Below, one piece after another: positions 1 through 15,600 of a DNA stretch of 64,000 nucleotides (positions within the stretch are counted from its first letter, which is position 1; every line of letters starts with the position of its first letter). Under the pieces are notes generated by a model, which had not been told where the DNA came from, ran no database searches, and saw only the letters and a list, made by a program, of their open reading frames with translations. This DNA comes from Terebella lapidaria (lineage: Eukaryota > Annelida > Polychaeta > Terebellida > Terebellidae), in assembly GCA_949152475.1 (NCBI GenBank), contig CASCJZ010000001.1:201001-265000 (forward strand), in the 5' to 3' direction. The position numbers and the translations under genes are program-made.

Positions 1-140
1 CCGGGTCACTGACGGTTGCCCTTCGTCGGGCTCTTTCCACCCGTCGGCTTAGTTCGGGTCATCAACGGACACGTAAAACACCCAAGAACTCGGAATAGGT
101 CAAGTAGACGGAAACCAATGCGATAAAACCAACTCTTCTT
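1..140 (+). repeat. Partial L8 element, end of the preceding HOR unit
   Basis: This segment matches 8060-8199 of unit U1 base for base as far as I checked, including the L8-type signs tcactgacgg, tttccacccg and cgtaaaacaccc. The array therefore continues to the left of the window. Confidence 0.95.
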
Positions 141-2453
141 ATGACACGTGTTGCACCAGTACCATCATGCTATGAAAAGCCTCAGCTTATGACACATTTT
201 GCATGCTTTCGTGTGGTCAAACAGCTCGCATCCACTGGGACACTGACGAGTGACAGAGACAAGTACCCTCTCGAGGCAGATTCCTACTCGTCACCCGGAA
301 CATGTTTACCACACGCACACCATGAAACCATTCGCCGGCTCATCGGCTGAAAGCAGTTTCTCAACTATATAATAGGAAGGGCCGAGTGTGTGTGACAGCG
401 TAGTCTCACTCAAGTCTCACTACTCACTAAGACAGCTTGCATCCTCTAGGACGTCGAGGGGTGACAGATACACGTACCCTCTCGAGGAAGAGTCCCACTC
501 TTGGCCAACTGAACGAAGCTCACCTGGAACAGGTTCCAGGTCACCGACGGTTGCATTTCTTCGGACTCTCTCCACCTGTCGGCTTAGCTCGGGTCATCAA
601 CGGTCACGTAAAAGACCCACGAACTCAGTCTACGTCAAGTAGACGAAAACGATAGCAATAAAACCAACTCTCTTCATGACAGGTTTTGCACCACTACCAT
701 CATGCTATGAAAAGCCTTAGCTCTGTCACCCGTCAGCTTTCGTGTGGTCAAACAGCTAGCATCCACTGGGACACTGTCAGGTGACAGATACAAGTACCCT
801 CTCGAGGCAGCATCCTACTCTTCACTTGGACTATGTTCACCACAAGCACAACATGAGACCTTTCGCCGGCTTACCGGCCGATAACATTTTCCTAAATATG
901 TATAAGGAGTGCCGGGCGTTTGTGACAGCGCAGTCGCAGGCATTCGGCACTTACTCGTTTAGTCAAACAGCTCGCGTCCAGTAGGACGTCGACGGGTGAC
1001 AGATACAAGTACCCTCTCGAGCAAGAGTCCTACTCTTGGCCCACTGAACGAAGCTCACTCGGAACATGTTCCGGGTCACCGACGGTTGCCCTTCGTCGGG
1101 CTCTTTCCCCCTGTCGGCTTAGTTCGGGTCATCAACGGACACGTAAAAGACTCAAGAACTCGGTCTAGGTCAAGTAGACGGAAACCAGAGCGATAAAACC
1201 AACTCTCTTTATGACACGTCTTGCACTACTACCATCATGTTATGAAAAGCCTAGGCTTATGACACATTTCGCACGCTTTGGTGTGGTCAAACAGCTCACT
1301 TCCACTGGAAAACCGACGGGTGACCGATTCAAGTACTCTTTCGAAGCAGCGTACTACTTTTCACCCGGAACATGTTCACCACAAGCAGACCATGAGACCT
1401 TTCACCGCCTAACCGGCCGATAACATTTTTCTAACTATCTATGGAAGATGCGGGTTGTTTGTGACAGCACAGTCACAGGCACTCGGCATTTTCTCTTTTA
1501 GTCAAACAGCTCGCGTCTACTAGGACGTCGATGGGTGACAGATACACGTACCCTCTCGAGGAAGAGTCCTATTTCTGGCCCACTGGACGAAGCTCACCTG
1601 GAAGATGTTCGGGGTCACAGACGGTTGCTTTTCGTCGGGCTCTTTCCACCTGTCGGCCTAGCTCGGGTCATCAACGGTCACGTAAAACACCCAAGAACTC
1701 GGAATAGGTCAAGTAGACGGAAACCAATGCGATAAAACCAACTCTTCTTATGACACGTGTTGCACCAGTACCATCATGCTATGAAAAGCCTCAGCTTATG
1801 ACACATTTTGCATGCTTTCGTGTGGTCAAACAGCTCGCATCCACTGGGACACTGACGGGTGACAGAGACAAGTACCCTCTCGAGGCAGATTCCTACTCGT
1901 CACCCGGAACATGTTCACCACAAGCACACCATGAGACCATTCGCCGGCTCATCGGCTGAAAGCAGTTTCTCAACTATATAATAGGAAGGGCCGAGTGTGT
2001 GTGACAGCGTAGTCTCACTCAAGTCTCACTAAGACAGCTCGCGTCCTCTAGGACGTCGAGGGGTGACAGATACACGTACCCTCTCGAGGAAGAGTCCCAC
2101 TCTTGGCCAACTGAACGAAGCTCACCTGGAACAGGTTCCGGGTCAAGGACGGTTGCATTTCTTCAGACTCTCTCCACCTGTCGGTTTAGCTCGGGTCATC
2201 AACGGTCACGTAAAAGACCCACGAACTCAGTCTACGTCAAGTAGACGAAAACGATAGCAATAAAACCAACTCTCTTCATGACAGGTTTTGCACCACTACC
2301 ATCATGCTATGAAAAGCCTTAGCTCTGTCACCCGTCAGCTTTCGTGTGGTCAAACAGCTAGCATCCACTGGGACACTGTCAGGTGACAGATACAAGTACC
2401 CTCTCGAGGCAGATTCCTACTCGTCACTTGTAACATGTTCACCACAAGCACAG

Positions 2454-2618
2454 CATGAGACCATTCGCCGGCTCATCGGCTGAAAGCAGTTTTTCAACAA
2501 TATATAGGAGATACTGGGTGTTTCGGACCTCACAATGTGGGAGTTCCGAAGCATTCAGGATTTCCTTTAAGCAGTCAGGAAAATGAAGTCGGCCGATGAG
2601 TGGGCAAATATTCTCATG
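2454..2618. repeat. Fold-back palindrome in U0 (centre 2536)
   Basis: An imperfect inverted repeat of at least 165 bp with no net gap between arms. The left arm catgag (2454-2459) mirrors ctcatg (2613-2618), and atcggc mirrors gccgat. Around the centre, tttcggacctcac mirrors gtgggagttccgaag; in the innermost 27 bases (2523-2549) 10 of 13 positions pair. The right arm is a diverged reverse-complement S element, including a decayed version of its tttcctaact stretch. Confidence 0.85.
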
Positions 2619-3353
2619 GCGGGCTTTTGATGTTTTACTTTGGTGGTTGCTCTGTGATGCGACTTGCCACTTTTCCCAGATGAATGCCCCGAGCTAAGCC
2701 AACAGGAGGCGAGAGCCCGACGAAGGGCAACCGTCGGTGACCTGGAACTTGTTCCTAGTGAGCTTCTTTCAGTGAGCAGTCACAGGCACTCGGCATTTTC
2801 TCGTTTAGTCAAACAGCTCTCATCCACTAGGACGTCGGCATGAGACAGACACAAGTACCCTCTCGAGGCAGATTCCTACTCGTCAACCGGAACATGTTCA
2901 CCACAAGCACACCATGAGACCACTCGCCGGCTCACCCACTGACTCCATTTTTCTAACTATATATAGGAAGGGCCTTTTCAGCCTTTTCCTTTTTAGTAAA
3001 ACAGCTCGCGTCCTCTAGGACGTCGAGAGGTGACAGATACAAGTACCCTCTCGAGGAAGAGTCCCACTCTTGGCCAACGGAACGAAGCTCAGCTGGATCA
3101 GGTTCCGGGTCACCGACGGTTGCATTTCTTCAGACTCTCTCCACCTGTCGGCTTAGCTCGGGTCATCAACGGTCACGTAAAAGACCCACGAACTCAGTCT
3201 ACGTCAAGTAGACGAAAACGAGAGCAATAAAACCAACTCTCTTCATGACAGGTTTTGCACCACTACCGTCATGCTATGAAAAGCCTTAGCTTACGACACA
3301 TTTTGCACGCTTTCGTGTGGTCAAACAGCTCGCGTCCACTTTAACACTGACGG

Positions 3354-3568
3354 GTGACAGATACAAGTACCCTCTTGAGGCAGCATCCTACTCTTCACTC
3401 GAAACATGTTCACCACAAGCACACCATGAGACCTTTCGCCAACTCACCGGCTGATAACATTTTCTTAAATATGTATAAGGAGTGCCGGGGGTTTGTGACA
3501 GCGCAGTCGCAGGCACTCGGCACTTACTCGTTTAGTCAAACAGCTCGCGTCCAGTAGGACGTCGACTG
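3354..3568 (+). repeat. Hybrid S7/S9 element at the U0 deletion junction
   Basis: The left part is S7 (cttgaggcag, actcgaaacatg, caactcaccggc, cttaaatatg) and the right part is S9 (five-G run, ttactcgtttag, gacgtcgactg). The switch lies within the shared stretch aatatgtataaggagtgccg, about 3468-3488. Length stays 215 bp, so the exchange was in register. Confidence 0.93.
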
Positions 3569-3892
3569 GTGACAGATACAAGTACCCTCTCGAGCAAGAG
3601 TCCTACTCTTGGCCCACTGAACGAAGCTCACTCGGAACATGTTCCGGGTCACTGACGGTTGCCCTTCGTCGGGCTCTTTCCACCCGTCGGCTTAGTTCGG
3701 GTCATCAACGGACACGTAAAACACCCAAGAACTCGGAATAGGTCAAGTAGACGGAAACCAATGCGATAAAACCAACTCTTCTTATGACACGTGTTGCACC
3801 AGTACCATCATGCTATGAAAAGCCTCAGCTTATGACACATTTTGCATGCTTTCGTGTGGTCAAACAGCTCGCATCCACTGGGACACTGACGA

Positions 3893-4103
3893 GTGACAGA
3901 GACAAGTACCCTCTCGAGGCAGATTCCTACTCGTCACCCGGAACATGTTTACCACATGCACACCATGAAACCATTCGCCGGCTCATCGGCTGAAAGCAGT
4001 TTCTCAACTATATAATAGGAAGGGCCGAGTGTGTGTGACAGCGTAGTCTCACTCAAGTCTCACTACTCACTAAGACAGCTTGCATCCTCTAGGACGTCGA
4101 GGG
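3893..4103 (+). repeat. S1 element of the reference unit, 211 bp
   Basis: Starts at gtgacagagacaag and continues with ctcgaggcag, which marks S elements. It carries the TATA-like stretch actatataataggaaggg near 4008. Its tail has an unusual tctcactcaagtctcact segment in place of the standard cacaggcactcggc stretch. It is the sister of S4, 1,609 bp downstream. Confidence 0.93.
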
Positions 4104-4423
4104 GTGACAGATACACGTACCCTCTCGAGGAAGAGTCCCACTCTTGGCCAACTGAACGAAGCTCACCTGGAACAGGTTCCAGGTCACCGACGGTTGCATT
4201 TCTTCGGACTCTCTCCACCTGTCGGCTTAGCTCGGGTCATCAACGGTCACGTAAAAGACCCACGAACTCAGTCTACGTCAAGTAGACGAAAACGATAGCA
4301 ATAAAACCAACTCTCTTCATGACAGGTTTTGCACCACTACCATCATGCTATGAAAAGCCTTAGCTCTGTCACCCGTCAGCTTTCGTGTGGTCAAACAGCT
4401 AGCATCCACTGGGACACTGTCAG
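4104..4423 (+). repeat. L1 element, 320 bp
   Basis: Starts gtgacagatacacgtaccct and continues ctcgaggaagag, the mark of L. It has the subtype signs tttcttcggactctctcc and gtctacgtcaagtagac (a 6 bp stem with 5 base loop at 4271-4287). Near its end agctctgtcacccgtcagc replaces the usual agcttatgacacatttt, which accounts for the 4 bp shorter length. It shares that replacement with L4. Confidence 0.93.
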
Positions 4424-4638
4424 GTGACAGATACAAGTACCCTCTCGAGGCAGCATCCTACTCTTCACTTGGACTATGTTCACCACAAGCACAACATGAG
4501 ACCTTTCGCCGGCTTACCGGCCGATAACATTTTCCTAAATATGTATAAGGAGTGCCGGGCGTTTGTGACAGCGCAGTCGCAGGCATTCGGCACTTACTCG
4601 TTTAGTCAAACAGCTCGCGTCCAGTAGGACGTCGACGG
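4424..4638 (+). repeat. S2 element, 215 bp
   Basis: Standard-length S with ctcgaggcagcatcctac, the motif aaatatgtataaggagtgcc near 4537, and the tail gtccagtaggacgtcgacgg. The S2, S7 and S9 elements form one subtype. Confidence 0.93.
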
Positions 4639-4962
4639 GTGACAGATACAAGTACCCTCTCGAGCAAGAGTCCTACTCTTGGCCCACTGAACGAAGCTCA
4701 CTCGGAACATGTTCCGGGTCACCGACGGTTGCCCTTCGTCGGGCTCTTTCCCCCCGTCGGCTTAGTTCGGGTCATCAACGGACACGTAAAAGACTCAAGA
4801 ACTCGGTCTAGGTCAAGTAGACGGAAACCAGAGCGATAAAACCAACTCTCTTTATGACACGTCTTGCACTACTACCATCATGTTATGAAAAGCCTAGGCT
4901 TATGACACATTTCGCACGCTTTGGTGTGGTCAAACAGCTCACTTCCACTGGAAAACCGACGG
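4639..4962 (+). repeat. L2 element, 324 bp
   Basis: Standard L beginning gtgacagatacaagtaccct with ctcgagcaagag. It contains a perfect 14 bp palindrome, cggaacatgttccg, at 4703-4716 and the subtype signs gcccttcgtcgggctctttc and agttcgggtcatcaacgg. L2, L6 and L8 are one subtype. Confidence 0.93.
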
Positions 4963-5177
4963 GTGACCGATTCAAGTACTCTGTCGAAGCAGCGTACTAC
5001 TTTTCACCCGGAACATGTTCACCACAAGCAGACCATGAGACCTTTCACCGCCTAACCGGCCGATAACATTTTTCTAACTATCTATGGAAGATGCGGGTTG
5101 TTTGTGACAGCACAGTCACAGGCACTCGGCATTTTCTCTTTTAGTCAAACAGCTCGCGTCTACTAGGACGTCGATGG
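4963..5177 (+). repeat. S3 element, 215 bp, divergent anchor
   Basis: Anchor is changed to gtgaccgattcaagtactct with gtcgaag (ttcgaag in most units), so it lacks the ctcgag hexamer found in most elements. The TATA-like site is degraded to actatctatggaag near 5078. Confidence 0.92.
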
Positions 5178-5501
5178 GTGACAGATACACGTACCCTCTC
5201 GAGGAAGAGTCCTATTTCTGGCCCACTGGACGAAGCTCACCTGGAAGATGTTCGGGGTCACAGACGGTTGCTTTTCGTCGGGCTCTTTCCACCTGTCGGC
5301 CTAGCTCGGGTCATCAACGGTCACGTAAAACACCCAAGAACTCGGAATAGGTCAAGTAGACGGAAACCAATGCGATAAAACCAACTCTTCTTATGACACG
5401 TGTTGCACCAGTACCATCATGCTATGAAAAGCCTCAGCTTATGACACATTTTGCATGCTTTCGTGTGGTCAAACAGCTCGCATCCACTGGGACACTGATG
5501 G
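5178..5501 (+). repeat. L3 element, 324 bp
   Basis: An intermediate L subtype: ttgcttttcgtcgggctc like L2, but gtcggcctagctcgggtc and caacggtcacg like L1. The 14 bp palindrome is disrupted to ggaagatgttcggg. Its 3' part (atgacacgtgttgcacc) is shared with L8. Confidence 0.92.
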
Positions 5502-5705
5502 GTGACAGAGACAAGTACCCTCTCGAGGCAGATTCCTACTCGTCACCCGGAACATGTTCACCACAAGCACACCATGAGACCATTCGCCGGCTCATCGGCT
5601 GAAATCAGTTTCTCAACTATATAATAGGAAGGGCCGAGTGTGTGTGACAGCGTAGTCTCACTCAAGTCTCACTACGACAGCTCGCATCCTCTAGGACGTC
5701 GAGGG
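5502..5705 (+). repeat. S4 element, 204 bp
   Basis: Sister of S1 with the same tctcactcaagtctcact tail but a further shortened join (ctcactacgacagctcg here, ctcactaagacagctcg in 'a' units). The TATA-like stretch is actatataataggaaggg near 5617. Confidence 0.92.
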
Positions 5706-6025
5706 GTGACAGATACACGTACCCTCTCGAGGAAGAGTCCCACTCTTGGCCAACTGAACGAAGCTCACCTGGAACAGGTTCCGGGTCAAGGACGGTTGCA
5801 TTTCTTCAGACTCTCTCCACCTGTCGGCTTAGCTCGGGTCATCAACGGTCACGTAAAAGACCCACGAACTCAGTCTACGTCAAGTAGACGAAAACGATAG
5901 CAATAAAACCAACTCTCTTCATGACAGGTTTTGCACCACTACCATCATGCTATGAAAAGCCTTAGCTCTGTCACCCGTCAGCTTTCGTGTGGTCAAACAG
6001 CTCGCATCCACTGGGACACTGTCAG
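5706..6025 (+). repeat. L4 element, 320 bp
   Basis: Sister of L1 with the same agctctgtcacccgtcagc replacement. It differs by gggtcaaggacgg and tttcttcagactc. The join to S5 reads cagctcgcatcc in 'b' units and cagctagcatcc in 'a' units. Confidence 0.92.
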
Positions 6026-6096
6026 GTGACAGATACAAGTACCCTCTCGAGGCAGATTCCTACTCGTCACCCGTAACATGTTCACCACAAGCACAG

Positions 6097-6261
6097 CATG
6101 AGACCATTCGCCGGCTCATCGGCTGAAAGCAGTTTTTCAACAATATATAGGAGATACTGGGTGTTTCGGACCTCACAATGTGGGAGTTCCGAAGCATTCA
6201 GGATTTCCTTTAAGCAGTCAGGAAAATGAAGTCGGCCGATGAGTGGGCAAATATTCTCACG
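6097..6261. repeat. Fold-back palindrome in U1 (centre 6179)
   Basis: Same structure as at 2454-2618. The 'b' haplotype has ttctcacgg where 'a' units have ttctcatgg in the outer right arm. Confidence 0.85.
6138..6155 (+). promoter_or_regulatory. TATA-like motif in S5, at the edge of the fold-back
   Basis: Reads caacaatatataggagat and is followed by actgggtgtttcgg, then the palindrome centre 25-40 bp downstream. If this were a start site, the RNA would begin with a long hairpin. This is speculative. Confidence 0.25.
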
Positions 6262-6330
6262 GCGGGCTTTTGATGTTTTACTTTGGTGGTTGCTCTGTGA
6301 TGCGACTTGCCACTTTTCCCAGATGAATGC

Positions 6331-6419
6331 CCCGAGCTAAGCCAACAGGAGGCGAGAGCCCGACGAAGGGCAACCGTCGATGACCTGGAACTTGTTCCTA
6401 GTGAGCTTCTTTCAGTGAG
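6331..6419 (-). repeat. Inverted fragment of an L element
   Basis: Read on the minus strand this is an L2-type piece: actgaaagaagctcac, ggaacaagttcc, accgtcg-type core, cccttcgtcgggctct, then ttggcttagctcgggg. It is the only L sequence in the unit on the minus strand. It lies at unit offset 2547 in every unit that keeps the fold-back (first copy 2688-2776), shifted by 1,602 or 1,603 bp in U12 and U14. With the inverted S piece to its left it forms one inverted, internally deleted L-S dimer. Confidence 0.88.
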
Positions 6420-6484
6420 CAGTCACAGGCACTCGGCATTTTCTCGTTTAGTCAAACAGCTCTCATCCACTAGGACGTCGGCAT

Positions 6485-6672
6485 GAGACAGACACAAGTA
6501 CCCTCTCGAGGCAGATTCCTACGCGTCAACCGGAACATGTTCACCACAAGCACACCATGAGACCACTCGCCGGCTCACCCACTGACTCCATTTTTCTAAC
6601 TATATATAGGAAGGGCCTTTTCAGCCTTTTCCTTTTTAGTAAAACAGCTCGCGTCCTCTAGGACGTCGAGAG
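6485..6672 (+). repeat. S6 element, 188 bp
   Basis: Begins gagacagacacaagtaccct, an altered anchor. It has the cleanest TATA-like motif of the array at 6596-6613. It is shortened by about 27 bp after it, where a pyrimidine-rich ccttttcagccttttcc stretch replaces the usual gtttgtgacagcgcagtc. Confidence 0.9.
6596..6613 (+). promoter_or_regulatory. TATA-like, purine-followed motif in S6 (possible Pol I-type initiator)
   Basis: The sequence ctaactatatataggaag sits about 110 bp into the S element. Related versions occur at the same place in S1, S2, S3, S4, S5, S7 and S9. Short TATA-plus-purine motifs of this kind surround the rRNA transcription start in plants and several invertebrates (known from the literature). 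Function here is inferred only; it could also be plain AT-rich satellite sequence. The clean motif recurs in every unit, e.g. 2953-2970. Confidence 0.3.
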
Positions 6673-6996
6673 GTGACAGATACAAGTACCCTCTCGAGGA
6701 AGAGTCCCACTCTTGGCCAACGGAACGAAGCTCAGCTGGATCAGGTTCCGGGTCACCGACGGTTGCATTTCTTCAGACTCTCTCCACCTGTCGGCTTAGC
6801 TCGGGTCATCAACGGTCACGTAAAAGACCCACGAACTCAGTCTACGTCAAGTAGACGAAAACGAGAGCAATAAAACCAACTCTCTTCATGACAGGTTTTG
6901 CACCACTACCGTCATGCTATGAAAAGCCTTAGCTTACGACACATTTTGCACGCTTTCGTGTGGTCAAACAGCTCGCGTCCACTTTAACACTGACGG
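6673..6996 (+). repeat. L5 element, 324 bp
   Basis: L of the L1/L4/L7 subtype (tttcttcagactctctcc, gtctacgtcaagtagac). Signs of its own are ccaacggaacgaagctcag and gctggatcagg. Confidence 0.93.
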
Positions 6997-7211
6997 GTGA
7001 CAGATACAAGTATCTTCTTGAGGCAGCATCCTACTCTTCACTCGAAACATGTTCACCACAAGCACACCATGAGACCTTTCGCCAACTCACCGGCTGATAA
7101 CATTTTCTTAAATATGTATAAGGAGTGCTGGGCGTTTGTGACAGCGCAGTCGCAGGCACTCGGCACTTACTGGTTTAGTCAAACAGCTCGCGTCCAGTAG
7201 GACGTCGACGG
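6997..7211 (+). repeat. S7 element, 215 bp
   Basis: Standard-length S of the S2/S9 subtype, with cttgaggcag (no ctcgag), gccaactcaccggctg, and cttaaatatgtataagg near 7108. The tail reads acttactggtttag. Confidence 0.93.
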
Positions 7212-7403
7212 GTGACAGATACAAGTACCCTCTCGAGCAAGAGTCCTACTCCTGGCCCACTGAACGAAGCTCACTCGGAACATGTTACGGGTCACCGATG
7301 GTTGCCCTTCGTCGGGCTCTTTCCACCCGTCGGCTTAGTTCGGGTGATCAACGGACACGTAAAAGACTCAAGAACTCGGTCTAGGTCAAGTGGACAGGAA
7401 CCA
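7212..7403 (+). repeat. L6 element, truncated to 192 bp
   Basis: Normal L2-type start and middle, then cut at ggtcaagtggacaggaacc: about 132 bp of the L 3' part are missing. It is fused directly to the S8 remnant. Confidence 0.92.
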
Positions 7404-7444
7404 GTGACAAAAACAAGTACCCTCTCGAGGCAGGACGTCGAGGG
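7404..7444 (+). repeat. S8 remnant, 41 bp
   Basis: Only the anchor (gtgacaaaaacaagtaccct, ctcgaggcag) and the last bases (gacgtcgagg) of an S element remain. Together with L6 it makes a 233 bp dimer remnant instead of 539 bp, present in every unit that retains this region, so the deletion predates HOR amplification. Confidence 0.9.
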
Positions 7445-7769
7445 GTGACAGATACATGTACCCTCTCGAGGAAGAGTCCCACCCTTGGCCCACTGAACGA
7501 AGCTCACCTGGATCAGGTTCCGGGTCACCGACGGTTGCATTTCTTCAGACTCTCTCCACCTGTCGGCTTAGCTCGGGTCATCAACGGTCAAGTAAAAGAC
7601 CCACGAACACAGTCTACGTCAAGTAGACGAAAACGAGAGCAATAAAACCAACTCTCGTCAAGACAGGTTTTTGCACCACTACCGTCATGCTATGAAAAGC
7701 CTTAGCTTATGACACATTTTGCACGCTTTCGTGTGGTCAAACAGCTCGCGTCCACTATAACACTGACGG
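7445..7769 (+). repeat. L7 element, 325 bp
   Basis: L of the L5 subtype with gtgacagatacatgtaccct, cccacccttggccc, cacgaacacagtc and an extra T in acaggtttttgcacc that gives the extra base. Confidence 0.93.
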
Positions 7770-7984
7770 GTGACAGATACAAGTACCCTCTCGAGGCAGC
7801 ATCCTATTCTTCACTCACAAGATGTTCACCACAAGCACACCATGAGACCTTTCGCCGGCTGACCGGCCAATAACATTTTCCTAAATATGTATAAGGAGTG
7901 CCGGGGGTTTGTGACAGCGCAGTCGCAGGCACTCGGCACTTACTCGTTTAGTCAAACAGCTCGCGTCCAGTAGGACGTCGACTG
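7770..7984 (+). repeat. S9 element, 215 bp
   Basis: S of the S2/S7 subtype with tcctattcttcactcac, ccggctgaccggccaataac, aaatatgtataaggagtgcc near 7884, a five-G run before tttgtg, and the tail gacgtcgactg. Confidence 0.93.
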
Positions 7985-8308
7985 GTGACAGATACAAGTA
8001 CCCTCTCGAGCAAGAGTCCTACTCTTGGCCCACTGAACGAAGCTCACTCGGAACATGTTCCGGGTCACTGACGGTTGCCCTTCGTCGGGCTCTTTCCACC
8101 CGTCGGCTTAGTTCGGGTCATCAACGGACACGTAAAACACCCAAGAACTCGGAATAGGTCAAGTAGACGGAAACCAATGCGATAAAACCAACTCTTCTTA
8201 TGACACGTGTTGCACCAGTACCATCATGCTATGAAAAGCCTCAGCTTATGACACATTTTGCATGCTTTCGTGTGGTCAAACAGCTCGCATCCACTGGGAC
8301 ACTGACGA
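7985..8308 (+). repeat. L8 element, 324 bp, joins U1 to U2
   Basis: L of the L2 subtype with tcactgacgg, tttccacccg and cgtaaaacacccaagaactc. The unit boundary chosen here (8200) lies inside it; its 3' part matches that of L3. Confidence 0.93.
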
Positions 8309-11300
8309 GTGACAGAGACAAGTACCCTCTCGAGGCAGATTCCTACTCGTCACCCGGAACATGTTTACCACATGCACACCATGAAACCATTCGCCGGCTC
8401 ATCGGCTGAAAGCAGTTTCTCAACTATATAATAGGAAGGGCCGAGTGTGTGTGACAGCGTAGTCTCACTCAAGTCTCACTACTCACTAAGACAGCTTGCA
8501 TCCTCTAGGACGTCGAGGGGTGACAGATACACGTACCCTCTCGAGGAAGAGTCCCACTCTTGGCCAACTGAACGAAGCTCACCTGGAACAGGTTCCAGGT
8601 CACCGACGGTTGCATTTCTTCGGACTCTCTCCACCTGTCGGCTTAGCTCGGGTCATCAACGGTCACGTAAAAGACCCACAAACTCAGTCTACGTCAAGTA
8701 GACGAAAACGATAGCAATAAAACCAACTCTCTTCATGACAGGTTTTGCACCACTACCATCATGCTATGAAAAGCCTTAGCTCTGTCACCCGTCAGCTTTC
8801 GTGTGGTCAAACAGCTAGCATCCACTGGGACACTGTCAGGTGACAGATACAAGTACCCTCTCGAGGCAGCATCCTACTCTTCACTTGGACTATGTTCACC
8901 ACAAGCACAACATGAGACCTTTCGCCGGCTTACCGGCCGATAACATTTTCCTAAATATGTATAAGGAGTGCCGGGCGTTTGTGACAGCGCAGTCGCAGGC
9001 ATTCGGCACTTACTCGTTTAGTCAAACAGCTCGCGTCCAGTAGGACGTCGACGGGTGACAGATACAAGTACCCTCTCGAGCAAGAGTCCTACTCCTGGCC
9101 CACTGAACGAAGCTCACTCGGAACATGTTCCGGGTCACCGACGGTTGCCCTTCGTCGGGCTCTTTCCCCCCGTCGGCTTAGTTCGGGTCATCAACGGACA
9201 CGTAAAAGACTCAAGAACTCGGTCTAGGTCAAGTAGACGGAAACCAGAGCGATAAAACCAACTCTCTTTATGACACGTCTTGCACTACTACCATCATGTT
9301 ATGAAAAGCCTAGGCTTATGACACATTTCGCACGCTTTGGTGTGGTCAAACAGCTCACTTCCACTGGAAAACCGACGGGTGACCGATTCAAGTACTCTTT
9401 CGAAGCAGCGTACTACTTTTCACCCGGAACATGTTCACCACAAGCAGACCATGAGACCTTTCACCGCCTAACCGGCCGATAACATTTTTCTAACTATCTA
9501 TGGAAGATGCGGGTTGTTTGTGACAGCACAGTCACAGGCACTCGGCATTTTCTCTTTTAGTCAAACAGCTCGCGTCTACTAGGACGTCGATGGGTGACAG
9601 ATACACGTACCCTCTCGAGGAAGAGTCCTATTTCTGGCCCACTGGACGAAGCTCACCTGGAAGATGTTCGGGGTCACAGACGGTTGCTTTTCGTCGGGCT
9701 CTTTCCACCTGTCGGCCTAGCTCGGGTCATCAACGGTCACGTAAAACACCCAAGAACTCGGAATAGGTCAAGTAGACGGAAACCAATGCGATAAAACCAA
9801 CTCTTCTTATGACACGTGTTGCACCAGTACCATCATGCTATGAAAAGCCTCAGCTTATGACACATTTTGCATGCTTTCGTGTTGTCAAACAGCTCGCATC
9901 CACTGGGACACTGACGGGTGACAGAGACAAGTACCCTCTCGAGGCAGATTCCTACTCGTCACCCGGAACATGTTCACCACAAGCACACCATGAGACCATT
10001 CGCCGGCTCATCGGCTGAAAGCAGTTTCTCAACTATATAATAGGAAGGGCCGAGTGTGTGTGACAGCGTAGTCTCACTCAAGTCTCACTAAGACAGCTCG
10101 CGTCCTCTAGGACGTCGAGGGGTGACAGATACACGTACCCTCTCGAGGAAGAGTCCCACTCTTGGCCAACTGAACGAAGCTCACCTGGAACAGGTTCCGG
10201 GTCAAGGACGGTTGCATTTCTTCAGACTCTCTCCACCTGTCGGTTTAGCTCGGGTCATCAACGGTCACGTAAAAGACCCACGAACTCAGTCTACGTCAAG
10301 TAGACGAAAACGATAGCAATAAAACCAACTCTCTTCATGACAGGTTTTGCACCACTACCATCATGCTATGAAAAGCCTTAGCTCTGTCACCCGTCAGCTT
10401 TCGTGTGGTCAAACAGCTAGCATCCACTGGGACACTGTCAGGTGACAGATACAAGTACCCTCTCGAGGCAGATTCCTACTCGTCACTTGTAACATGTTCA
10501 CCACAAGCACAGCATGAGACCATTCGCCGGCTCATCGGCTGAAAGCAGTTTTTCAACAATATATAGGAGATACTGGGTGTTTCGGACCTCACAATGTGGG
10601 AGTTCCGAAGCATTCAGGATTTCCTTTAAGCAGTCAGGAAAATGAAGTCGGCCGATGAGTGGGCAAATATTCTCATGGCGGGCTTTTGATGTTTTACTTT
10701 GGTGGTTGCTCTGTGATGCGACTTGCCACTTTTCCCAGATGAATGCCCCGAGCTAAGCCAACAGGAGGCGAGAGCCCGACGAAGGGCAACCGTCGGTGAC
10801 CTGGAACTTGTTCCTAGTGAGCTTCTTTCAGTGAGCAGTCACAGGCACTCGGCATTTTCTCGTTTAGTCAAACAGCTCTCATCCACTAGGACGTCGGCAT
10901 GAGACAGACACAAGTACCCTCTCGAGGCAGATTCCTACTCGTCAACCGGAACATGTTCACCACAAGCACACCATGAGACCACTCGCCGGCTCACCCACTG
11001 ACTCCATTTTTCTAACTATATATAGGAAGGGCCTTTTCAGCCTTTTCCTTTTTAGTAAAACAGCTCGCGTCCTCTAGGACGTCGAGAGGTGACAGATACA
11101 AGTACCCTCTCGAGGAAGAGTCCCACTCTTGGCCAACGGAACGAAGCTCAGCTGGATCAGGTTCCGGGTCACCGACGGTTGCATTTCTTCAGACTCTCTC
11201 CACCTGTCGGCTTAGCTCGGGTCATCAACGGTCACGTAAAAGACCCACGAACTCAGTCTACGTCAAGTAGACGAAAACGAGAGCAATAAAACCAACTCTC

Positions 11301-12615
11301 TTCATGACAGGTTTTGCACCACTACCGTCATGCTATGAAAAGCCTTAGCTTACGACACATTTTGCACGCTTTCGTGTGGTCAAACAGCTCGCGTCCACTT
11401 TAACACTGACGGGTGACAGATACAAGTACCCTCTTGAGGCAGCATCCTACTCTTCACTCGAAACATGTTCACCACAAGCACACCATGAGACCTTTCGCCA
11501 ACTCACCGGCTGATAACATTTTCTTAAATATGTATAAGGAGTGCCGGGCGTTTGTGACAGCGCAGTCGCAGGCACTCGGCACTTACTGGTTTAGTCAAAC
11601 AGCTCGCGTCCAGTAGGACGTCGACGGGTGACAGATACAAGTACCCTCTCGAGCAAGAGTCCTACTCCTGGCCCACTGAACGAAGCTCACTCGGAACATG
11701 TTACGGGTCACCGATGGTTGCCCTTCGTCGGGCTCTTTCCACCCGTCGGCTTAGTTCGGGTGATCAACGGACACGTAAAAGACTCAAGAACTCGGTCTAG
11801 GTCAAGTAGACAGGAACCAGTGACAAAGACAAGTACCCTCTCGAGGCAGGACGTCGAGGGGTGACAGATACATGTACCCTCTCGAGGAAGAGTCCCACCC
11901 TTGGCCCACTGAACGAAGCTCACCTGGATCAGGTTCCGGGTCACCGACGGTTGCATTTCTTCAGACTCTCTCCACCTGTCGGCTTAGCTCGGGTCATCAA
12001 CGGTCACGTAAAAGACCCACGAACACAGTCTACGTCAAGTAGACGAAAACGAGAGCAATAAAACCAACTCTCGTCAAGACAGGTTTTTGCACCACTACCG
12101 TCATGCTATGAAAAGCCTTAGCTTATGACACATTTTGCACGCTTTCGTGTGGTCAAACAGCTCGCGTCCACTATAACACTGACGGGTGACAGATACAAGT
12201 ACCCTCTCGAGGCAGCATCCTATTCTTCACTCACAAGATGTTCACCACAAGCACACCATGAGACCTTTCGCCGGCTGACCGGCCAATAACATTTTCCTAA
12301 ATATGTATAAGGAGTGCCGGGGGTTTGTGACAGCGCAGTCGCAGGCACTCGGCACTTACTCGTTTAGTCAAACAGCTCGCGTCCAGTAGGACGTCGACTG
12401 GTGACAGATACAAGTACCCTCTCGAGCAAGAGTCCTACTCTTGGCCCACTGAACGAAGCTCACTCGGAACATGTTCCGGGTCACTGACGGTTGCCCTTCG
12501 TCGGGCTCTTTCCACCCGTCGGCTTAGTTCGGGTCATCAACGGACACGTAAAACACCCAAGAACTCGGAATAGGTCAAGTAGACGGAAACCAATGCGATA
12601 AAACCAACTCTTCTT
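8200..12615 (+). repeat. HOR unit U2, 4,416 bp ('a' haplotype)
   Basis: Full element order as in U1, offset by 4,416. It carries a trio of variants seen again only in U5: cccacaaactcag in L1, ctactcctggccc in L2, and gtgttgtcaaac before S4. These tie U2 to U5 as homologous members of a 13,248 bp super-repeat. Confidence 0.96.
10513..10677. repeat. Fold-back palindrome in U2 (centre 10595)
   Basis: Same structure as at 2454-2618; central acaatgtgg confirmed. Confidence 0.85.
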
Positions 12616-15600
12616 ATGACACGTGTTGCACCAGTACCATCATGCTATGAAAAGCCTCAGCTTATGACACATTTTGCATGCTTTCGTGTGGTCAAACAGC
12701 TCGCATCCACTGGGACACTGACGAGTGACAGAGACAAGTACCCTCTCGAGGCAGATTCCTACTCGTCACCCGGAACATGTTTACCACACGCACACCATGA
12801 AACCATTCGCCGGCTCATCGGCTGAAAGCAGTTTCTCAACTAAATAATAGGAAGGGCCGAGTGTGTGTGACAGCGTAGTCTCACTCAAGTCTCACTACTC
12901 ACTAAGACAGCTTGCATCCTCTAGGACGTCGAGGGGTGACAGATACACGTACCCTCTCGAGGAAGAGTCCCACTCTTGGCCAACTGAACGAAGCTCACCT
13001 GGAACAGGTTCCAGGTCACCGACGGTTGCATTTCTTCGGACTCTCTCCACCTGTCGGCTTAGCTCGGGTCATCAACGGTCACGTAAAAGACCCACGAACT
13101 CAGTCTACGTCAAGTAGACGAAAACGATAGCAATAAAACCAACTCTCTTCATGACAGGTTTTGCACCACTACCATCATGCTATGAAAAGCCTTAGCTCTG
13201 TCACCCGTCAGCTTTCGTGTGGTCAAACAGCTAGCATCCACTGGGACACTGTCAGGTGACAGATACAAGTACCCTCTCGAGGCAGCATCCTACTCTTCAC
13301 TTGGACTATGTTCACCACAAGCACAACATGAGACCTTTCGCCGGCTTACCGGCCGATAACATTTTCCTAAATATGTATAAGGAGTGCCGGGCGTTTGTGA
13401 CAGCGCAGTCGCAGGCATTCGGCACTTACTCGTTTAGTCAAACAGCTCGCGTCCAGTAGGACGTCGACGGGTGACAGATACAAGTACCCTCTCGAGCAAG
13501 AGTCCTACTCTTGGCCCACTGAACGAAGCTCACTCGGAACATGTTCCGGGTCACCGACGGTTGCCCTTCGTCGGGCTCTTTCCCCCCGTCGGCTTAGTTC
13601 GGGTCATCAACGGACACGTAAAAGACTCAAGAACTCGGTCTAGGTCAAGTAGACGGAAACCAGAGCGATAAAACCAACTCTCTTTATGACACGTCTTGCA
13701 CTACTACCATCATGTTATGAAAAGCCTAGGCTTATGACACATTTCGCACGCTTTGGTGTGGTCAAACAGCTCACTTCCACTGGAAAACCGACGGGTGACC
13801 GATTCAAGTACTCTTTCGAAGCAGCGTACTACTTTTCACCCGGAACATGTTCACCACAAGCAGACCATGAGACCTTTCACCGCCTAACCGGCCGATAACA
13901 TTTTTCTAACTATCTATGGAAGATGCGGGTTGTTTGTGACAGCACAGTCACAGGCACTCGGCATTTTCTCTTTTAGTCAAACAGCTCGCGTCTACTAGGA
14001 CGTCGATGGGTGACAGATACACGTACCCTCTCGAGGAAGAGTCCTATTTCTGGCCCACTGGACGAAGCTCACCTGGAAGATGTTCGGGGTCACAGACGGT
14101 TGCTTTTCGTCGGGCTCTTTCCACCTGTCGGCCTAGCTCGGGTCATCAACGGTCACGTAAAACACCCAAGAACTCGGAATAGGTCAAGTAGACGGAAACC
14201 AATGCGATAAAACCAACTCTTCTTATGACACGTGTTGCACCAGTACCATCATGCTATGAAAAGCCTCAGCTTATGACACATTTTGCATGCTTTCGTGTGG
14301 TCAAACAGCTCGCATCCACTGGGACACTGACGGGTGACAGAGACAAGTACCCTCTCGAGGCAGATTCCTACTCGTCACCCGGAACATGTTCACCACAAGC
14401 ACACCATGAGACCATTCGCCGGCTCATCGGCTGAAAGCAGTTTCTCAACTATATAATAGGAAGGGCCGAGTGTGTGTGACAGCGTAGTCTCACTCAAGTC
14501 TCACTAAGACAGCTCGCGTCCTCTAGGACGTCGAGGGGTGACAGATACACGTACCCTCTCGAGGAAGAGTCCCACTCTTGGCCAACTGAACGAAGCTCAC
14601 CTGGAACAGGTTCCGGGTCAAGGACGGTTGCATTTCTTCAGACTCTCTCCACCTGTCGGTTTAGCTCGGGTCATCAACGGTCACGTAAAAGACCCACGAA
14701 CTCAGTCTACGTCAAGTAGACGAAAACGATAGCAATAAAACCAACTCTCTTCATGACAGGTTTTGCACCACTACCATCATGCTATGAAAAGCCTTAGCTC
14801 TGTCACCCGTCAGCTTTCGTGTGGTCAAACAGCTAGCATCCACTGGGACACTGTCAGGTGACAGATACAAGTACCCTCTCGAGGCAGATTCCTACTCGTC
14901 ACTTGTAACATGTTCACCACAAGCACAGCATGAGACCATTCGCCGGCTCATCGGCTGAAAGCAGTTTTTCAACAATATATAGGAGATACTGGGTGTTTCG
15001 GACCTCACAATGTGGGAGTTCCGAAGCATTCAGGATTTCCTTTAAGCAGTCAGGAAAATGAAGTCGGCCGATGAGTGGGCAAATATTCTCATGGCGGGCT
15101 TTTGATGTTTTACTTTGGTGGTTGCTCTGTGATGCGACTTGCCACTTTTCCCAGATGAATGCCCCGAGCTAAGCCAACAGGAGGCGAGAGCCCGACGAAG
15201 GGCAACCGTCGGTGACCTGGAACTTGTTCCTAGTGAGCTTCTTTCAGTGAGCAGTCACAGGCACTCGGCATTTTCTCGTTTAGTCAAACAGCTCTCATCC
15301 ACTAGGACGTCGGCATGAGACAGACACAAGTACCCTCTCGAGGCAGATTCCTACTCGTCAACCGGAACATGTTCACCACAAGCACACCATGAGACCACTC
15401 GCCGGCTCACCCACTGACTCCATTTTTCTAACTATATATAGGAAGGGCCTTTTCAGCCTTTTCCTTTTTAGTAAAACAGCTCGCGTCCTCTAGGACGTCG
15501 AGAGGTGACAGATACAAGTACCCTCTCGAGGAAGAGTCCCACTCTTGGCCAACGGAACGAAGCTCAGCTGGATCAGGTTCCGGGTCACCGACGGTTGCAT

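Follow-up and report, generated by a model that had tools for sequence, protein, structure and literature searches.

The fold-back in unit SF of this satellite array is composed of two structures with a common centre at position 6179: an inner hairpin, which is native to the S units of the satellite, and an outer stem formed by an inverted copy. We regard SF as probably the mutational scar of fold-back copying at the native S hairpin, passively amplified with the array.

Unit SF within the satellite array

The window, that is, the whole analysed stretch of 64,000 bases, covers bases 201001-265000 of contig C10 (1.3 Mb) in an assembly of 761.6 Mb. It is a satellite array with a GC content of ~50%, in which S units (~215 bp) and L units (~324 bp) are arranged in a 4416-bp HOR of 15 segments in the order S0 L1 S1 LL S2 L3 S3 L4 S4 L5 S5 L6 S6 L7 SF. 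The 28 full HORs of ~4416 bp are 99.07-100% identical to the reference copy, which is counted among them; the sequence is a tandem multi-unit repeat with high identity between HORs, as in a satellite HOR array. In the part of C10 that was decomposed into units (15-272 kb, with 1 kb missing), S0 comes directly after SF in 53 of 58 cases.

The first-pass annotation described a fold-back built from an inverted, degenerate L-S dimer and present once per HOR, which holds for each standard HOR. A blastn search with 6026-6484 returned 14 full-length, ungapped copies of the SF region in the window (99.1-100% identity), the number previously given, and each SF copy deviates from the given one at either 0 or 4 of its 459 bases. 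The "regular 4.4 kb" spacing applies to 8 of the 13 intervals (4416 bp), while the remaining five measure 3643, 3319, 6239, 6017 and 6019 bp. Nor is SF the one irregular part of the HOR, which also contains a fused L-L unit of 558 bp and two S units side by side. The fused unit, a truncated L followed by a full L, lies at 7182-7739 and is repeated in every standard HOR. Elsewhere in the array ~6.3 kb of inserted sequence interrupts an L1 unit (L018:2353-5868, C10 about 32-36 kb). The insertion contains an open frame that encodes endonuclease and reverse transcriptase domains of the non-LTR type, plus a UPF0029 fragment; a second split L1 unit with identical spacing was found in the decomposed part of C10.

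Genome-wide, a 27-base core of SF was located at 72 places in a search permitting up to 3 mismatches, and was exact in 72/72. All lie in one array that spans 25-352 kb of C10, all in + orientation, and 14 of them are in the window. The inverted stretch 6180-6330 gave 73 candidates, of which the 40 scored are all within the C10 array.

It had also been proposed that the fold-back could act as a replication or recombination hotspot, a proposal that neither site counts nor array breakpoints support. There are 51 non-canonical junctions among 807 unit junctions in the decomposed part of C10, two of them being the L1 units split by the ~6.3-kb insertion. Only one starts inside an SF insert (C10:47,306), compared with ~3 expected by length for an insert that occupies 5.5% of the HOR; since rearranged HORs were copied in turn, the events depend on one another. 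Over the same range no satellite unit is inverted outside the SF inserts. Variable sites among the 28 full HORs amount to 58/4416, with 1 in 200 in the arms (6083-6283), at 6260, and 3 in 87 in the neighbouring S head of SF, so that the arms show no excess of variable sites. The higher mean pairwise difference of the outer right arm (0.0079 vs 0.0029 on average) is due to the single site 6260.

A native hairpin inside an inverted copy

The two arms of the fold-back match each other far better than expected by chance. As first described, 6097-6178 and 6180-6261 mirror each other without net gaps, matching at 54 of 82 ungapped positions, and the inverted match found by blastn is wider, extending to 6083-6275 (193 columns), with 65.3% identity within the copy itself (E 2e-8) and 65.8% when its neighbour is the target (E 5e-10). 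Local alignment of arm to arm gave 63/95 identical positions (66%) and a score of 31, whereas the maximum in 500 dinucleotide-block shuffles was 15. The DNA fold of 6097-6261 has an energy of -33.1 kcal/mol (z -6.2; 0/200 shuffles as good), and the RNA fold of 6026-6484, a check that had been proposed earlier, is also better than all shuffles (z -3.35; 0/100). The repeat unit therefore contains an inverted segment able to pair with a direct one, through arms that are weak (66%). The long arms were not reported by a general repeat search of the region. Positions 1-15000 of the window had no Rfam match with E up to 5, and loci L035-L040 had none at gathering score.

Table 1. Segments of unit SF and an example of the native S-tail hairpin (positions in the window).
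Feature	Position	Strand	Basis
Unit SF: 215-bp S unit plus ~244 bp extra, mostly inverted	5996..6454	+	459 vs 215 bp; unit decomposition
Outer left arm: ordinary S body	6083..6147	+	S part of SF 0.93 identical to S6 over 203 columns
Inner stem: S-tail hairpin, variant form, centre 6179	6148..6218	+	Symmetric DNA fold
Outer right arm: inverted S body	6219..6283	-	6225-6283 pairs with left S
Reversed sliver of Axin coding exon	6295..6329	-	28/35 (80%) to exon, E 4e-4
Inverted L piece (L positions 77-167)	6327..6417	-	80-87% to L units
S tail, resuming within hairpin sequence	6420..6454	+	97% to S5 181-215, measured on the identical SF copy in L040
Native S-tail hairpin of unit S1, lacking the inverted insert	7123..7168	+	About -30 kcal/mol, RNA energies

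The segments of SF are listed in Table 1. The inverted L piece, originally noted at 6331-6419, is shifted slightly and agrees with the L units. The description of the whole as an inverted dimer is correct for ~6219-6283 and 6295-6417, which are clearly inverted, but not for the inner stem. Many other S tails fold alike, so the inner stem is not a product of the inversion. Its right end is uncertain (6205-6226), and its centre is defined by the fold, a separate computation of the inner centre having returned nothing. A hairpin of the inner-stem type folds in SF, in the SF relatives on contigs C14 and C260, and in L040, a locus at the right edge of the C10 array. The C14 copy agrees with the direct S tail of L040 at 39/44 positions (89%), compared with 37/51 (73%) for inverted S, and the C10 copy agrees with that direct tail at 30/39.

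The outer stem has other properties. Position by position, 6225-6283 pairs with the left S best at centre 6179.0 among 155 offsets (37/59), and the reversed stretch 6205-6275 is 66-69% identical to S units. The 56 oppositions of the outer stem comprise 37 Watson-Crick, 4 G.T, 6 A.C and 9 other pairs, showing no strand bias, as expected of a decaying inverted copy. None of the 65 sites of the outer left arm (6083-6147) varies among the 28 full HORs.

The native hairpin, with a stem of ~21 bp and a 6-nt loop, terminates many S units. We found a + strand hairpin of this kind in S1, S2, S4 and S5, in four C260 tails, and in two tails each of C14 and L040; tails on C83 and C15 have similar fold energies. 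The folds of S3 (-12.9) and S6 (-11.0) are weak, one C260 tail is broken off, and S0 is without the segment. When folded as DNA, the S tails in the window gave z values of -0.2 (S1 surroundings), -0.6 and -2.1, the first two being no better than shuffles, while the L035 and L040 tails fold better than shuffles (z -5.4 and -5.2). On C83 and C15 (L037, L038), divergent L-like repeats with a period of ~200 bp each adjoin an S-like hairpin tail. A single satellite copy on C3 (L039:1260) and the left edge of the C10 array (about 22,680) have almost the same starting point, which falls within the S-tail hairpin.

Pairs were counted in 10 chosen distinct tails out of 26 strings. In these ten tails the share of paired cells is 91.4% for the + strand and 71.4% for the - strand; with slid partners it does not exceed 46%. 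Changes on both sides occur in 4 of 21 pairs, a number reached by 8/500 shuffles; the number of cells with both-side changes is not unusual (62/500), and the covariation score is 0.213 vs 0.152 (1/500). Since the tails are related, the 30 inferred stem substitutions were replayed at random stem sites on the tree of the tails. Pairing averaged 0.779 in the replays, and the observed 0.914 was reached in 0.0008 of them; 15 of 25 substitutions at paired sites kept the pair. A wider tree test used all 17 full-length tails read on the satellite's own strand (16 distinct) and left out nine strings, namely three opposite-strand readings and six truncated tails or SF right junctions. The seven tails added in this way include pair-breaking variants; the S3, S6, S0, SF and S-Axin types are in neither set. 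Pairing in the 16 distinct tails was 0.899 vs 0.750 (P 0.001), and the - strand was also above random (P 0.0003).

Pairing in the native S tail is thus kept better than random substitution predicts (P about 0.001), for either strand, with RNA and DNA indistinguishable. Distinct G.T and A.C states stand at 12 to 2 (P 0.006), or 12 to 3 with more tails, but this bias is no proof of RNA: on the tree, with substitution types fixed, the plus-minus difference has P 0.42, and 0.40 with more tails. Because of this result and the above-random pairing of the - strand, we claim no strand.

By eye, S tails in the window, for example that at 7123-7168, are closely preceded by a TATA-like box and followed by a T-rich stretch. 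The idea of an rDNA spacer, which came from the TATA-like box in S, was discarded, the sole 5.8S match being on another contig, C12. Nor was a mirtron or Pol III reading of the S tail adopted. A tentative possibility is that the native S-tail hairpin, and not the fold-back, is the selected structure, as RNA or single-stranded DNA, in a small transcribed or rolling-circle module with a TATA-like box and a T-rich tail; the satellite might then have been spread and rearranged through this module, and the fold-back could have arisen by copying that turned at the hairpin of an Axin-bearing unit.

The Axin fragment and the origin of the inverted copy

A search with a junction pattern gave matches, in addition to those in the array, C14 and C260, at C1 and at the right edge of the C10 array. 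The C1 match is within an open frame of 338 codons that contains an RGS domain (2.2e-26) and an Axin tankyrase-binding domain (3.7e-8), and for which the best solved structure is Axin (7.7e-36). The right-edge locus, L040, aligns with the Axin exon at 90/106 bases (85%, E 2e-29) in the direct orientation of the satellite, and its Axin piece is joined to an S-like tail, the Axin-S join lying in direct orientation at C10:355,096. In the genome search with L040, in which 40 of 80 candidates were scored, it matched 60-62 bp of SF copies with 85% identity (E between about 2e-11 and 2e-10 genome-wide) and 55 bp of the C1 exon with 87%. The sliver in SF (35 bp, E 4e-4) is weak by itself, and its identity as Axin rests on the bridge through L040. 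Beyond the right edge of the array there is also an inverted 67-bp L fragment, 94% identical (L040:5363-5429).

With E up to 1e-5, the start of the Axin exon was found at 9 places in the genome, namely in the gene itself, four times at C10:628-646 kb, once each on C385 and C334, as a partial match on C1, and in L040. This search did not return the SF copies because their Axin match is too short. Axin exon starts with 89-92% identity occur in repeats (L041:2204-3220; L042:834-1097 and 5232-5494; L043:585-847; C10:628-646 kb, C385, C334). The 628-kb copies sit among short repeats that also occur in the left flank of C10, and the tail of L is related to these repeats. It is therefore probable that repeated or mobile sequence surrounding the satellite acquired the Axin piece. 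That the transfer went from gene to repeat is suggested by the intact coding frame. Among the matches listed for papers on satellite DNA or tandem repeats there was no mention of axin, and four 18-base stretches of the satellite were not found in the papers searched.

The inserts on C14 and C260 have the same hairpin variant and the reversed Axin-L piece and are 75-82% alike to that in C10, without 66 bp of the inverted S in the outer right arm. As C14 and C260 are 95% alike over 2.8 kb, they may count as one event. The 66 bp adjoins the Axin piece in C10 as it does in direct-orientation L040, and we therefore read the C14/C260 state as a deletion. If so, the insertion would predate the HOR in its present form, and the long hairpin would have been lost in some places.

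In fold-back copying, an ancestral unit with the order L - Axin fragment - S would have been copied up to the S-tail hairpin, where the new strand folded back and was extended backwards, first across the S body, then across the Axin fragment and some of L. This product would have been joined into an S tail, one such unit would have entered the 4416-bp HOR, and unequal exchange would have raised it to 72 copies; the left half of SF would later have been replaced by ordinary S. We infer the priming step, the order of events and the lack of function. Fold-back copying is preferred because the inverted body shares the hairpin centre, 6179.0, which fold-back priming predicts and random insertion does not: a short inverted repeat lies at the centre with the inverted copy in register, as in fold-back inverted duplications. 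SF has an ordinary S as its left half, which lacks the Axin fragment of the template, so the later exchange must be assumed, and the template is known only as its relative L040. Between 31 and 50 bases from the centre pairing is poor (9/20), and the priming end is not directly seen; a GTCA/TGAC match, a candidate microhomology for priming, can be read there by eye in sequence that is diverged.

Alternatively, an L-Axin-S piece could have been end-joined backwards into an S tail by plain inversion or insertion, with the common centre a coincidence. We consider this unlikely, though by no means negligible. The right SF junction falls within the S-tail hairpin, as do the left end of the C10 array and the start of the C3 copy, and the hairpin may simply break often; however, the shared centre would then be one of ~155 offsets.

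That the long hairpin is functional, as a cruciform, as a centromere-like chromatin mark or as dsRNA feeding small-RNA silencing, appears improbable. Its fold is stable both as DNA and as RNA, it occurs in each standard HOR, and its core is exact wherever found. However, such identity between copies is expected from HOR turnover, given how few sites of the whole HOR vary, the arms are only 66% identical, the C14/C260 relatives are without 66 bp of the outer arm, and the outer stem has no strand bias. Finally, long near-identical arrays are hard to assemble, but an assembly artefact is hardly credible for an insert that recurs 72 times beside different neighbours and has related forms on C14 and C260.

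Comparison with known systems

In this genome a single contig contains the hairpin together with a relative of the likely template and the inverted product of probable fold-back copying, and a slice of the developmental gene Axin has been carried into a satellite HOR. A decaying inverted copy can here be told apart from a hairpin in which pairing is maintained, and the test could be applied to other satellites that are called cruciform-forming from inverted repeats alone.

The limpet satellite PcH-sat, described as a 179-bp, AT-rich satellite linked to Nin-SINE (in the excerpt of PMC11121367), is set apart by that description from the present satellite with ~50% GC and 215/324-bp units. Oyster Helentron/HINE elements have satellite-like central repeats, and Helitrons are prone to capture genes (PMC7492417, in part). 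They resemble the present array in having satellite-like repeats beside mobile sequence and a palindrome. Compared by palindrome placement, they differ: the HINE palindrome is in the right (3') flank, as far as described, whereas here the hairpin occurs in many S units across the array.

In yeast, inverted duplications induced by double-strand breaks are reported to centre on 11-bp imperfect inverted repeats with a 6-bp spacer (PMC10622511, in part). SF is similar in that a short imperfect inverted repeat with a small spacer centres the inverted copy. The yeast duplications, as presented there, are chromosome-scale and experimental, whereas SF is ~200 bp, old and deduced from sequence.

Satellites with inverted segments in the repeat include the 1061-bp monomer of Tribolium brevicornis, TmSat2 of T. 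madens and the 385-bp satellite of Trichogramma brassicae, according to the portion of PMC13081366 consulted. The same text gives 80 bp for the Trichogramma inverted repeats, and 80, about 300 and about 470 bp for the inverted segments in these monomers; at the inversion sites of TmSat1, one opposed subunit is degenerate. Like the satellites so described, the present one is a tandem repeat with inverted segments and a potential hairpin, and the 80-bp Trichogramma repeats are near in size. In the accounts of Tribolium and Trichogramma, however, the inverted segments belong to the basic monomer, while here arms of ~96 bp (66%) are found in one of 15 HOR segments, with a gene fragment beside them. 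SF is thus a variant of the known inverted-segment satellites, in which a small, old inverted copy with a sliver of a gene occupies one unit of the HOR.
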